Assembly (NCBI GenBank): GCA_000508305.1
Contig: CP006977.1
Location: 1,892,621 to 1,956,620, forward strand
Source: Sulfolobus acidocaldarius SUSAZ
GTDB taxonomy: Archaea; Thermoproteota; Thermoprotei_A; Sulfolobales; Sulfolobaceae
DNA: 64,000 bases
Direction of reading: 5' to 3'
A model generated the notes under the pieces. It saw nothing but the letters and a program-made list of their open reading frames with translations, did not search any database and had not been told where the DNA came from. Positions 51,616-61,770 of the stretch are shown one piece after another (within the stretch, counting starts at the first letter, position 1; each line of letters starts with the position of its first letter). A program made the position numbers and the translations under genes.

Positions 51616-52041
51616 TTATTTCTTAAGAGTTTCGCTTGGTGCAACTTTCTTCAATATGTAGTCTTTCCAAAACATTCCATTACTATCCATACCATAGGTT
51701 GTCTCATATCCCATGTTCATCCAAAGCTCCATACCACCCAACATATTATATACTGTCTTTCCTTCGAAGAGTTCAGGTTTAGAGTTTATCAACCAAGTAG
51801 TTCTATTTGCGTGTTCACATACTAGTACTATTTGTTTTGTCTCTAACTTAGGTAGTAATATGTCACAATAATCCATTGGAATTAATATTGCTCCCGGTAT
51901 ATGGTGGTCTTCATATTCCCATGGATTTCTTATATCAACTATTGTTACTTCTCCTTTTTTATAGAGTTCTCTCACCACTGAGGGAGGAACGTTCTTCACG
52001 TTTTTGTAATAAGGAGTTCTCCTCTCAGTTATTTGAACCAT
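51616..52041 (-). CDS. Rhodanese-like sulfurtransferase
   Basis: 141 residues from the ATG at 52041; a TTG at 52062 would add seven, but a TATA-like CATTTATATTC upstream predicts a leaderless start at 52041. Single rhodanese domain with V-D-I-R-N-P-W-E-Y, H-I-P-G-A-I, and an active-site loop C75-E-H-A-N-R80 (the C-x5-R pattern). The Cys would carry a persulfide, or possibly a selenide. It is divergent from the SelD-like gene, 140 bp away. Confidence 0.88.
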   Translation of the reverse strand: MVQITERRTPYYKNVKNVPPSVVRELYKKGEVTIVDIRNPWEYEDHHIPGAILIPMDYCDILLPKLETKQIVLVCEHANRTTWLINSKPELFEGKTVYNMLGGMELWMNMGYETTYGMDSNGMFWKDYILKKVAPSETLKK

Positions 52042-52180
52042 CGGACTAAATCTAATAGACAAGAATATAAATGTATCGCATAATACAAGTTTTACAAAAT
52101 ATATTTAATTATTATTATAATTACTTGAATAAGAAATTACATTAGATAAGCTTTTATTTCTAGCCTGAGTAGGAAAACCC

Positions 52181-53575
52181 ATGAGCATTGATAAGATGGT
52201 TGACAGATTCAGAGAGAATTTAGAGAAATATAAGAGAATGGGACTAAACCCTTTGTCTTTAGCAACAGGTTGTGCAGTGAAGGTTGACCTCATTGACACT
52301 GTATACCCAGCAATAACTAAAATAAGACCAGTATTAGATAAACTAAATATAGAGATAACTCCAAGAGAGGATGCAGATATATTTATCTCAAGAAAGTTGA
52401 CCACGAGAAAGAGGATAATAAACTCAGGTGAATTTGATGCCGATAGAGCAGTAGCTCTAATTCAGGTTAATCAGAACACTGCAAGTAGCCCAGATAAATT
52501 TGGTGAGTTTCTACTGAGAGTTTACACTTCAATTAAAACTAATAGGAAATTGACAATAGGCAAAGGACATTCCATAGTGACCACAAATCCAAAAGGTGAG
52601 GTGGCAGTGCTGGATTTATTCAAATTAGACGGAGATAAGGAAAACTCATACACTGTCACAAATAATGATACCATTCAGATCGTGGATCCTTTGGACGATC
52701 CAGGATCCCAGGTTCAAGTTGATGTAGCTATCTCAAACTCCTTAAATGATTTGTTCACTAAGGGGGTCTTTCAGGATATCGAGATTGTTCCTGTGGTGGA
52801 TGCTCCTTTAGAGGAGTTAAGGACAAAACTCCTAGAGAACTACAAAGTATTCTCTGAAAAATATTCATTCCAGATGGAAAATGATATTCAGCCTAAAGTA
52901 GGTACATTAATGATTGGGGCAACTGTTATAGGTAAGTCTGATCATGAGTTGCCAACTTTTTATAATAACGTGAACGAGAAAATGGAAATTCTAGTTACAA
53001 GACCAGTAGGTGAATTAACTCCAATAAACTTATCCATGTGGATATTAGCTGTTCCAGAACTAGTAGAAGAACTTGAGAAGAGAGGAATCACAATAAAAAG
53101 GGTTGAGGATGCTAAGAGAAAGGCATTAGATTACATGAAGAAACCTAATATTGATGTGGCGAAAACCATGTACAATTATTTACCTCCCTTTGGAAAGCAG
53201 TTTGATGAGAGAAGCCATATAGCTATTACTACTGATGTCACAGGACCTGGCTTATTTGTAGTTAAGGAGTTTGCTAAAAAGGCAAATGTTGACGTTGAAA
53301 TAACTGATATTCCAGTAATCGATTCAGATATTCATGAATTCTCCACAGAGAATTTTATAATACCTAATTCTACTGCTGGAACTAATGGTGCTATAGTCAT
53401 ATTTGCCCATAGTGATGTGATAAATCAGTTATATGAAGATCTAAAGAAAATAGGACAAGAACCAAGGGTTATAGGTAAGGTTATACGTAAGGGAGATGGT
53501 ATTGTATATGCTCCACAAATAGTTACAAAATACATTCATAGGGCTAATGTACTTAAGGAGTTTAAGTTAAAGTAA
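52181..53575 (+). CDS. SelD-like (AIR-synthase/selenophosphate-synthetase superfamily) protein
   Basis: A 464-residue protein whose N-terminus reads [11 protein letters not shown]31-A-V-K34, aligning with the catalytic glycine-rich C17-x2-K20 loop of selenophosphate synthetase. Later segments ([32 protein letters not shown]) fit the two-domain PurM-type fold. Sulfolobales are not known to make selenoproteins, so it may phosphorylate a sulfur species or serve tRNA selenium modification. Divergent from a rhodanese. A TATA-like CTTTTATTT lies about 27 bp upstream of the ATG. Confidence 0.78.
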
Positions 53576-53778: not shown

Positions 53779-54624
53779 GTGTATCCGCCTGAGTTTAGTT
53801 ATGTAAGGGCAGAAAGCCTACAAGAAGCTCTAAAATTCCTGGAAGGAAATGACAACACTAGACCACTAGCTGGTGGACAGAGCCTAATTCCTATGTTAAA
53901 GCTGAGAGTTCTGTCACCTGATTATATACTAGATATTAACAGGCTCAATGAACTGAATTACGTAAAGACAAGCCTAAATGGCGTAAGTATTGGAGCTCTG
54001 ACGAGATATCACGACATACTGAGTAATGATATTCTAAAATCTAAAGTACCATTAATGCATCATGCGACAAGAACAATAGGAGACATGCAAGTTAGAAATA
54101 TGGGAACAATAGGTGGGGCAATTTCCAATGCAGACCCTGCGTCCGATATGCCAGTCGTATTAACTGCACTAAATGCAACAATTATTCTTTCCTCAGTTTC
54201 AGGAAGCAGATCTGTGAAAGCCCTTGATTTCTTCAAGGGACCATTTACAACAGACACGAACAAAGGAGAATTAGTAACTCAGATTGAGGTTCCAGTGTTA
54301 GACGGGTATAAAACTGTGTACAAAAAAGTTGTAAGGAGAGCCGGAGATTATGCCCTGGCTTCAGTTGCACTAGCCATTAAATTAAAGGGAAATGAAATAG
54401 AGGATATTAAATTAGCCTATGGAGGAGTTCATGATAAGCCATTCAGAGCCATGGAAGTTGAAAAAAATGTGATTGGAAAGAAATTGGACGATGACCTAGT
54501 GAAAGATATTGCAAGTAAAGTTTCTAGTCAAGTCAATCCCCCCTCCGATCATAGGGGAAGTTCCTGGTATAGGAGGGAAGTTGTTAAAGTTCTAACCATG
54601 AAAGCATTTAAGGAGGTGGCTTAA
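53779..54624 (+). CDS. cutB: Glyceraldehyde/aldehyde oxidoreductase, FAD-binding medium subunit
   Basis: 281 residues, GTG start. Medium subunit of the xanthine dehydrogenase/CO dehydrogenase family: [12 protein letters not shown] near residue 31 and [11 protein letters not shown] near 112 for FAD binding. The gene order medium-small-large with 2-bp and overlapping junctions, and the sizes of about 31, 18 and 82 kDa, fit the molybdenum aldehyde oxidoreductase purified from Sulfolobus acidocaldarius, which oxidises glyceraldehyde in the non-phosphorylated Entner-Doudoroff route. Confidence 0.92.
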
Positions 54625-54626
54625 AG

Positions 54627-55118
54627 GTGTTAGTTGTTAAGAAAGGAGAAGGGGTAAAAGTAAGAGTAAGAGTAAACGGAGTATGGTATGAAAAATATGT
54701 GAGCCCAAGAACACTGTTGGTGGATTTCATAAGAGATGAGTTAGGTCTAACGGGAACTAAAGTTGGCTGTGATACAACGACCTGTGGTGCGTGTACAGTA
54801 ATAATGAATGGTAAATCAGTTAAATCCTGTACAGTCTTGGCTGCACAGGCTGATGGGGCAGAAATAACAACGATTGAAGGTTTATCAAGTGATTCCAAGT
54901 TACACCCAATTCAAGAAGCTTTTAAAGAAAACTTTGCACTACAATGTGGATTCTGTACTGCTGGCATGATTATGCAAACTCACTTCTTCCTAAAGGAGCA
55001 TCCAAATCCCACAGAAGAGGAGGTAAGGGATGGGATACACGGTAATATTTGTAGATGTACAGGTTATCAGAATATAGTTAAAGCTGTTCTAGATGCTTCT
55101 AAGAGGTTGAGATCATGA
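54627..55118 (+). CDS. cutC: Glyceraldehyde/aldehyde oxidoreductase, [2Fe-2S] small subunit
   Basis: 163 residues, GTG start. First cluster: C-D-T-T-T-C-G-A-C with a fourth Cys in S-V-K-S-C. Second cluster: C-G-F-C-T-A-G-M and C-R-C-T-G-Y-Q-N-I. It relays electrons from the molybdenum site in CutA to FAD in CutB. It starts 2 bp after cutB and overlaps cutA by 4 bp. Confidence 0.93.
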
Positions 55119-57361
55119 CCTACTCGGGTAAATCCATAAAAAGATTAAACGACGATAAATTCACCACAGGAAGAAGTAACTATATTGACGATATAAAAAT
55201 ACCGTCCCTTTATGCAGGCTTTGTGAGAAGTCCACATCCCCATGCTAATATAAAGAGAATAGACGCTACCGATGCTCTCAAAGTTAACGGGATCGTGGCT
55301 GTATTTACTGGTAAGGATATCAATCCGATGTTGAAAGGTGGTGTTGGAGTACTTTCAGCATATGTAAATCCAAGTCTATTCAGATTTAAGGAGAGGAAGG
55401 CGTTTCCGGAAGATAACAAAGTAAAATATGTTGGAGAACCTGTAGCAATAGTGATTGGACAAGATAAGTATGCTGTTAGAGACGCTATAGACAAAGTAAA
55501 CGTAGAATACGAACAATTAAAACCAGTACTAAAAATGGAAGACGCTGAGAAAGATGAAGTAATAGTCCATGATGAGTTGAAAACCAACGTGTCTTATAAG
55601 ATACCGTTTAAGGCAGGAGATATTGAGAAAGCGTTTAGCCAAGCTGATAAAGTAGTGAAAGTTGAGGCAATAAATGAGAGACTAATTCCAAACCCAATGG
55701 AGCCAAGAGGTATTCTCTCAGTTTATGATGGAAATTCACTTTCAGTATGGTATTCTACACAAGTACCACACTATGCACGTAGTGAGTTTGCTAGAATTTT
55801 CGGAATACCTGAAACTAAGATAAGGGTAGCCATGCCTGATGTGGGAGGCGCATTTGGTAGTAAAGTTCACATTATGGCAGAGGAGTTAGCAGTAATTGCG
55901 TCCTCAATATTATTAAGAAGACCTGTAAGGTGGACAGCAACAAGAAGTGAGGAGATGCTAGCAAGTGAAGCTAGAAGTAATGTGTTCACTGGAGAAGTCG
56001 CAGTGAAGAAAGACGGGACTGTCTTAGGCATCAAGGGTAAACTATTGCTTGATCTAGGCGCCTACCTCACGCTAACCGCAGGAATCCAACCTACCATAAT
56101 ACCCGTAATGATACCTGGACCATACAAGGTTCGTGACCTGGAGATAGAGAGCACAGCAGTTTACACTACAACACCCCCAATAACCATGTATAGAGGAGCT
56201 AGCAGACCTGAGGCTACATATATAATTGAGAGAATAATGAGTACTGTTGCCGACGAGTTAGGTCTAGATGATGTGACAATCAGGGAAAGGAATCTTATTG
56301 ACCAATTACCATATACCAATCCATTTGGACTCAGATATGATACAGGAGACTACATAAGAGTGTTCAAAGATGGTGTAGCTAAGCTAGAATACAACGAACT
56401 AAGGAAATGGGCTCAACAAGAGAGAAGTAAAGGACATAGAGTGGGAGTTGGACTAGCATTCTACCTGGAGATATGTAGCTTCGGTCCCTGGGAGTATGGA
56501 GAGATTAAGGTAGACAATAAGGGAAATGTATTAGTGATAACTGGAACTACTCCTCATGGTCAAGGGACTGAAACTGCTATAGCCCAAATAGTTGCAGACG
56601 CATTACAAATACCCATAGAGAAAATAAGAGTTGTATGGGGAGATACTGATATTGTAGAGGGTAGTTTTGGAACATATGGTTCAAGATCATTAACTATAGG
56701 TGGCTCAGCTGCATTAAAGGTTGCTGAAAGAGTCCTAGACAAAATGAAGAAAGCTGCTGCGAGCTACTTCAACGCTGATGTACAGGAGATAAGATATGAA
56801 AATGGAGAATTCTCGGTGAAGAATGACCCAAGTAAGAAAGCAAGTTGGGATGAAGTAGCCAGCCTAGCTACAACAAAAGAACCTATAGTGGAGAAGATAT
56901 ATTATGAAAATGACGTTACATTCCCATATGGTGTTCACGTAGCTGTAGTTGAGATTGACGACTTAGGAATAGCCAGAGTTGTGGAGTACAGGGCTTATGA
57001 CGATATAGGTAAAGTCATTAACCCTGCATTGGCAGAGGCACAGATACATGGTGGAGGAGTTCAAGGTGTAGGACAAGCATTATATGAGAAGGCTATAATT
57101 AATGAAAACGGTCAACTAAGCGTAACCTATGCCGACTATTATGTTCCTACAGCTGTAGAGGCTCCAAGATTCATATCTTACTTTGCAGATAAGTCTCACC
57201 CATCCAATTACCCAACAGGAACCAAAGGTGTTGGAGAAGCTGCATTAATTGTAGGACCTGCAGCTATCATAAGGGCTATTGAAGACGCTGTAGGTGCAAG
57301 GTTTACAAAAACGCCAACTCCTCCTGAGGAAATATACAAGGCTATGATGAGTAAAAAGTGA
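55115..57361 (+). CDS. cutA: Glyceraldehyde/aldehyde oxidoreductase, molybdopterin large subunit
   Basis: 748 residues. Moco-binding motifs G-G-A-F-G-S-K near residue 247 and [10 protein letters not shown] near 352; catalytic Glu in K-G-V-G-E-A-A near 710. The C-S-F-R loop of real CO dehydrogenase is missing, consistent with an aldehyde oxidoreductase. It is distinct from the second molybdenum hydroxylase at 31301-33628, and the two differ in whether the FAD and Fe-S parts are fused. The enzyme should oxidise D-glyceraldehyde and other aldehydes to acids. Confidence 0.92.
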
Positions 57362-60744: not shown

Positions 60745-61770
60745 ATGAGATTAGGAAAGATAGACGCAAAAGTATTCTCCAGTGTGATCTATCCGCATCT
60801 GGGTAAGATAAGAGAGGAAGTTATAGTACCACCACAGAATGGTGTAGATACAGGCGTAATAGACCTGAATGACGGAAGGGTTTTAGTAGTTAAAACGGAT
60901 CCCGTATTTATTGTACCTCAACTTGGATTCAGAAAATCAGCCTGGTTTGCAGTCCACATCTTAGCGAGTGATGTAATGACATCAGGAATTCCGCCACAGT
61001 ATGCGTTAATTGATCTTAATCTTCCGCCCAGTATAAAAGACGATGAATTTCAAGATATGTGGGTAGGGATGCATGAGGCTATGAAAGAAATAGGGGTAAT
61101 GGTAGTTGGTGGGCACACAGGTGTATACGAGGGCACAGATTATCCCATGATTGGAGGCTTTTCGATGTTAGGTATCGGAAGTAAAGAAACTGTCGGAATG
61201 CCATCAAAGGTTAGGGTAGGCGATGATGTAATAATGACTAAGGGACCGGCAATTGAGGCAGTAGCGTTGTTGACCAATCTACATCCAGAGTATTTTAAAC
61301 AGAGAATCAGTAGCAAAGAACTCTTCGAAGATGCCTACAACTTATACTGGGAGATGAGTTGTTGGAAGGATGGACTTATAGCTTCAAAGATTGGTATCCA
61401 CTTAATGCATGACGCTACTGAAGGAGGAGTTTATGGAGCATTAAATGAAATAGCAAAGGTCACGAACAAGATGATAAAGATATATGAGAGTAGATTATTC
61501 ATTAGACCCAGCGTTAGGGAAATAACCAGAATAGTGGAGATTGATCCATGGTCATCAATAAGTGAAGGTACCATGATTATTATAAGTGATAAGGGGGAGG
61601 AGATAAAGAGAGAGCTCATTCAAAATAGAATAGAGGCTGAAATTATTGGAAAGATTGATAATGGCGAGGGAGTTGAATTGGTAGGTAAGGATGGGGCCAA
61701 GAGAAAAGTAAATCCACCTGAAGAGGATCCGTTCTGGAGAGCCTTCTTCAAGCTATCTAAGGAAATGTGA
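60745..61770 (+). CDS. AIR synthase-related protein (HypE-like, no C-terminal Cys)
   Basis: 341 residues with a PurM-type two-domain ATP-binding fold: D-T-G-V-I-D-L-N-D and V-V-K-T-D-P-V near the N-terminus, [21 protein letters not shown] near residue 120, and [12 protein letters not shown] near 225. These match HypE and its relatives. The conserved C-terminal P-R-x-C tail that HypE uses for thiocarboxamide transfer is absent (the protein ends K-L-S-K-E-M), and no hydrogenase gene is in the window. It likely phosphorylates a different small molecule. It is the second PurM-superfamily protein here, besides the SelD-like one. Confidence 0.85.

Follow-up and report, generated by a model that had tools for sequence, protein, structure and literature searches.

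The window analyzed here, a 64,000-nt stretch of the Sulfolobus acidocaldarius SUSAZ genome, contains the gene for a SelD-like protein, oriented divergently from a gene for a single-domain rhodanese (Table 1). As the preliminary description had noted, the two share an intergenic region of about 140 bp (139 bp measured from the rhodanese ATG), and a small HTH gene follows the rhodanese, 18 bp beyond it on the same strand. A TTG start in place of the ATG would extend the rhodanese from 141 to 148 residues. The intergenic region is partially conserved in two Saccharolobus-type loci, while the HTH gene is retained in four examined Sulfolobaceae loci and adjoins a separate rhodanese at L145. A scan for sigma-70-type promoters between the two genes was discarded as meaningless for an archaeon. 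The molybdenum (Mo) hydroxylase operon downstream is probably context, lying outside the function of the SelD-like protein. The window also encodes a second PurM-superfamily protein (341 aa, 60745–61770, + strand), which is AIR-synthase-like, falls under the cut-offs for HypE (85.8 bits), ThiL, and SelD, and is left unassigned.

Table 1. Genes and sequence features of the SelD-like locus, in window coordinates
Feature	Position	Strand	Remarks
SelD-like protein (NF038049 family), 464 aa	52181..53575	+	ATG start; 710 bits vs 250 cut-off; AlphaFold pLDDT 91.0; selenophosphate synthetases rank first in the PDB search
Single-domain rhodanese, 141 aa, catalytic loop C75-E-H-A-N-R80	51616..52041	−	PF00581, 53.7 bits
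Small winged-helix/HTH protein, 78 aa	51361..51597	−	Weak sub-threshold HTH matches
Intergenic region, 139 bp, common to both divergent genes	52042..52180		Window coordinates
Mo-hydroxylase operon (FAD, 2Fe-2S, and Mo subunits; glyceraldehyde dehydrogenase type)	53779..57361	+	Mo subunit NF041018, 1293 bits
Loop G30-C31-A-V33-K34-V-D36-L37	52268..52291	+	Corresponds to C17-x-x-K20 of E. coli SelD
D64, candidate equivalent of the first Asp that binds metal in SelD	52370..52372	+	Hand-placed by motif; invariant 46/46
G127-K-G-H-S-I132, inside the insertion relative to SelD	52559..52576	+	Invariant
N161-N-D163-T, candidate equivalent of TTD68 in E. coli SelD	52661..52672	+	Hand-placed; invariant 46/46
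N186-S-L-N-D190, counterpart of SelD N87 and D91	52736..52750	+	hhalign; invariant 46/46
D352-V-T-G-P-G, counterpart of SelD D227-V-T-G-F-G	53234..53251	+	hhalign; invariant 46/46

The SelD-like protein matches NF038049 (SelD_rel_HyperS, SelD-related putative sulfur metabolism protein; curated NCBIfam cut-off 250 bits) with 710.4 bits, residues 9–462 aligning to positions 2–464 of the 465-position profile. Its score against the SelD equivalog TIGR00476 is 17.4 bits (cut-off 125), and a Pfam search gave no match at E 0.01. The orthologue in a second genome of the genus (G152) is 98% identical. The SelD-like protein of the window belongs to a known family, not to a new one. Li et al. (2014; PMC4210487) defined this family in Sulfolobales and Thermoproteales, named S. 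acidocaldarius as a member, noted the catalytic Cys, which they state to be absent from the other families of the superfamily, and proposed thiophosphate as the product. They described SirA-like, COG2210, and rhodanese-related neighbors as well as an acylphosphatase fusion. The window protein departs from their family in nothing: the Cys loop, the TusA (SirA-like), DsrE-type (COG2210), and rhodanese neighbors, and the Thermoproteales acylphosphatase fusion are common to both descriptions. Two later reviews repeat the proposal as speculation, and our literature search found no later functional, biochemical, or genetic study of the family. What is added here beyond that work is the linkage to YeeE/YedE, a standalone acylphosphatase neighbor, a wider distribution, an inactive sister branch, and an explanation of the rhodanese in terms of Mo enzymes.

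An AlphaFold model built with 40 sequences (pLDDT 91.0, pTM 0.90) has a SelD-type fold. Selenophosphate synthetases fill the first 15 places among its PDB matches (best E 1.7e-18), followed by HypE (1.2e-13) and then ThiL; a viral structure library returned distant FGAM-synthase-like matches only. An hhalign comparison with a profile of ten SelDs (one from E. coli and nine from plasmid records, of which seven are bacterial and two haloarchaeal; three have an in-frame TGA codon where Sec would be placed) aligned 239 columns in the C-terminal two thirds, with a probability of 98.8 and a single-comparison E-value of 4.5e-17. It pairs N186, D190, and D352 with SelD N87, D91, and D227. The N-terminal loop, D64, and D163 lie outside this alignment and were placed by motif and order. 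The full loop reads L27-A-T-G30-C31-A-V33-K34-V-D36-L, with Cys31 encoded by tgt (52271–52273) and Lys34 by aag (52280–52282).

The Cys/Lys spacing of this loop, from which the preliminary description had started, is not a chance resemblance. Both residues are invariant in alignments of 34, 40, and 46 sequences, and 28 of 28 chosen positions, these two included, are identical in all 46 catalytic members. Neither an unrelated fold nor a loss of the Cys and Lys among the 46 catalytic members was found, and the SelD-like identity is upheld by profile and structure, at a score beneath that of the SelD equivalog cut-off. The protein shares with SelD (TIGR00476; for example E. coli SelD, PDB entry 3U0O) the fold, the Cys-x-x-Lys loop, the Asn and Asp ligands, and TusA/YedF-type gene neighbors. 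It differs in an insertion of very roughly 80–100 residues, located after the first Asp motif and before the second, and in a displaced GHSI motif: an invariant GKGHSI lies within the insertion, while the GGHSI of SelD occupies another position in the chain.

The superfamily to which this fold belongs leaves room for phosphorylation of some other small molecule or protein group, in a role nearer to HypE, ThiL, or PurM; the linked acylphosphatase would then, like that of HypF, have an acyl phosphate as its substrate. HypE and ThiL structures do match strongly, the linked acylphosphatases belong to the family of the HypF N-terminal domain, and HypE likewise combines the ATP-binding superfamily with a functional link to an acylphosphatase domain. 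However, SelD structures rank above HypE, the invariant Cys/Lys loop is specific to SelD (the catalytic Cys being absent outside the SelD families, PMC4210487), and the linkage to sulfur carriers is strong. Such a role is therefore considered improbable.

Conserved gene neighbors were counted at 54 non-redundant SelD-like loci. A same-strand TusA gene lies within 250 bp at 31 of these (crude binomial 7e-58, a figure that ignores the relatedness of loci), and every adjacent TusA has the CPxP motif. YeeE/YedE is found within 2.5 kb at 20 loci, an acylphosphatase is adjacent or fused at 25, with further fusions in Thermoproteales-type genomes, and a rhodanese lies within 3 kb at 18. At least one of TusA, YeeE, DsrE, or rhodanese occurs near the gene at 47 of the 54 loci; in the window the rhodanese alone is adjacent. 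The preliminary description had suggested a presence/absence comparison with sulfur metabolism. Among the 165 genomes of the class, TusA is present in 50/50 carriers versus 54/115 non-carriers and YeeE in 39/50 versus 9/115, counts that are uncorrected for phylogeny, although the association also holds outside Sulfolobaceae (TusA in 23/23 carriers, YeeE in 18/23). The steady partners of the SelD-like protein are TusA, a YeeE/YedE-type transporter, and acylphosphatase.

Outside Sulfolobaceae, the recurrent gene order is YeeE/YedE–TusA–SelD-like–acylphosphatase, in some cases with a further TusA. In Saccharolobus-, Stygiolobus-, and Sulfurisphaera-type genomes, the SelD-like gene follows or adjoins a TusA–SQR-like–DsrE–DUF1641 run. 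In the genome containing the window, this run occupies another site, next to DsrE and TusA genes similar to the sHdr-linked set. The SQR_III family profile proved too general to discriminate across the class. Genus g9 keeps TusA, YeeE, and SQR-like genes without the SelD-like gene, which is absent from both genomes searched; this speaks against the sulfur-activation reading. At six Acidilobaceae-type loci, a PLP enzyme gene of the O-phosphoserine-sulfhydrylase/cysteine-synthase type adjoins the SelD-like gene; PLP enzyme genes at or next to it were recorded at L043, L044, L054, L062, L063, L094, and L097, suggesting a possible link to cysteine synthesis.

The rhodanese behaves differently from these partners. 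Its divergent placement across a common 139-bp region recurs in several other Sulfolobaceae, an arrangement compatible with the tRNA system that the preliminary description had envisaged, in which the two proteins would act as a dedicated pair in the manner of SelD and SelU. SelU/MnmH joins a rhodanese to a P-loop domain or, in archaea, is split into subunits; neither form was found here, the rhodanese being a lone domain of 141 aa without the second half of SelU, and SelU (arch_SelU_Nterm) scores above cut-off in 0 of 165 genomes of the class. Outside Sulfolobaceae, the divergent arrangement is missing from most carriers. Rhodanese orthologues occur in 31/31 Sulfolobaceae genomes, and in genomes without the SelD-like gene they lie beside Mo-hydroxylase genes, so that the rhodanese is not an obligate partner. 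A tRNA system of this kind is very unlikely, and the claim that the rhodanese is the functional half of a SelD/SelU-like pair is not supported.

A partnership with the nearby Mo hydroxylase accounts better for the adjacent rhodanese. The rhodanese is the next same-strand gene after a CutA-like Mo-hydroxylase subunit at L131–L133 (all in g9), L134, L135, L140, L144, L146, L147, and L148, with a short unassigned ORF between the two at L134 and L135. At L134, L135, L140, L144, and L146–L148, the pair is located away from the SelD-like gene. In g9, the rhodanese follows the Mo-hydroxylase large subunit in three genomes, and the SelD-like gene is absent from the two that were searched. Saccharolobus- and Metallosphaera-type loci, like the window, have the rhodanese, SelD-like, and Mo-hydroxylase genes grouped together. 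From what is generally known of its enzyme class, the rhodanese is a candidate persulfide donor for the Mo sulfido ligand.

By extension, the SelD-like protein itself might provide Mo hydroxylases with the activated sulfur (or selenium) of their sulfido ligand, much as SelD does for selenium-dependent enzymes. Its gene is directly upstream of the Mo-hydroxylase operon in the window, the rhodanese pairs with such genes, and orphan SelD clusters, including haloarchaeal ones, serve selenium-dependent Mo hydroxylases (Haft and Self 2008, PMC2276186). The loci here have TusA beside the SelD-type gene, DsrE genes, and a nearby Mo hydroxylase in common with those clusters; they differ in that YqeB and YqeC were not recognized in the examined neighborhoods. 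Yet XdhC was not found in the genome of the window, and a MoCoBD_1 gene is lacking in 15 of 50 carriers, which rejects Mo-hydroxylase maturation as a general function of the family. Outside Sulfolobaceae, SelD-like and MoCoBD_1 genes show no association (8/23 vs 56/113, p = 0.25). Supply of Mo hydroxylases is accordingly regarded as a quite improbable role.

A further question is whether the chalcogen is sulfur or selenium. The preliminary description placed the protein in a lineage without known selenoproteins, and this agrees with our searches: true SelD, like SelU, is above cut-off in none of the 165 genomes, and Li et al. (PMC4210487) report no known Se trait in Sulfolobales or Thermoproteales. 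A divergent but genuine selenophosphate synthetase serving an unrecognized archaeal use of selenium would nevertheless have the Cys/Lys loop and SelD active site seen here. The best named relatives of the neighboring proteins are associated with selenium, as in the bacterial set (YedE/FdhT for the transporter, YedF for TusA, and SQR_III_seleno and Nterm_to_SelD for an oxidoreductase), and genuine haloarchaeal SelD is found in a TusA–SelD–YqeB–DsrE setting. These relatives all score below their curated cut-offs, however, and YeeE family scores were rejected as a discriminator between sulfur and selenium, YeeE proteins unlinked to the SelD-like gene ranking alike. TusA, rhodanese, and the other sulfur-type neighbors fit sulfur just as easily. 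Gene context does not separate the two elements, because YedE/YedF-like, SQR-like, and TusA genes also surround genuine SelDs. The absence of known selenium users favors sulfur over selenium, and we regard a genuine selenophosphate synthetase as unlikely.

The family is above cut-off in 50 of 165 genomes of the class and in 59 of 398 genomes drawn from the phylum. Uncultured Thaumarchaeota/Nitrososphaerales of marine and groundwater origin also carry it, as a scan of named genomes showed; this extends the previously described range (Sulfolobales and Thermoproteales only, PMC4210487) to uncultured Nitrososphaeria. Contamination is unlikely to account for these carriers, since they form one clade with common synteny. 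At L083, L090, L092, L093, and L095 (and L079), next after the SelD-like gene come TusA, in most cases a further TusA, and a two-domain rhodanese; at four of these loci YeeE–TusA is also close, adjoining β-propeller genes. Two record titles probably reflect mis-binning: L103 (“Marinimicrobia”) resembles the thaumarchaeal locus, and L074 (“Euryarchaeota”) has the gene order of a contig from the Sulfolobaceae genome G151.

Six divergent homologs (family f54, L106–L111, from G347, G357, G399, G432, G453, and G480; 232–267 bits family-wide) form one clade outside the catalytic members in a tree whose long branches leave the exact branching unsure. This sister branch probably belongs to Nitrososphaeraceae. 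Cys31 is kept in five of the six, while Lys34, D64, D163, N186, D190, and D352 are lost in all of them, and TusA and YeeE neighbors are lacking. With their catalytic residues mostly replaced, these proteins are apparent pseudo-enzymes.

On balance, we lean toward the SelD-like protein carrying out ATP-dependent phosphorylation of reduced or carrier-bound sulfur to give thiophosphate. We infer such a reaction from the SelD active site and the sulfur-gene setting. ATP and Mg2+ would be bound in the SelD/PurM-type active site, and Cys31 and Lys34 would take part in phosphate transfer to reduced sulfur. The donor could be sulfide or sulfane sulfur carried on a TusA/DsrE-type protein, with the linked YeeE/YedE-type transporter importing the sulfur species. 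The product would be thiophosphate, that is, the chemistry of SelD applied to sulfur, and the linked or fused acylphosphatase may act on the phosphorylated product or a by-product. No obvious acceptor enzyme for thiophosphate is present among the neighbors of the SelD-like gene. The leading idea of the preliminary description, activation of sulfide, persulfide, or selenium, thus stands as one already published in 2014 (PMC4210487), while the rhodanese as second member of the pair is not supported as a general mechanism. The available S. acidocaldarius strain is reported to have lost sulfur oxidation (PMC11323534, mBio 2024) and the gene is kept in the genome of the species; a biosynthetic or protective role would therefore be no less likely than one in energy metabolism.

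More tentatively, and with some doubt as to the whole, the family may be dedicated to thiophosphate synthesis (or to some hidden use of selenophosphate), terminating a transporter–TusA relay and working with an acylphosphatase partner. Thermoproteota and some Nitrososphaeria would then contain activated sulfur, as a P=S compound, among their ordinary metabolites, and one archaeal branch would have become catalytically dead. If true, metabolism would gain a second activated chalcogen-phosphate, and the presence of a SelD active site in archaea without selenoproteins would be explained. The family and the thiophosphate idea have been known since 2014; what is gained here is a sharper list of partners, a broader known range, and a natural control that is inactive. 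TusA, YeeE/YedE, and acylphosphatase, together with the inactive sister branch, provide reagents and natural controls for testing in S. acidocaldarius, for which genetic tools exist.
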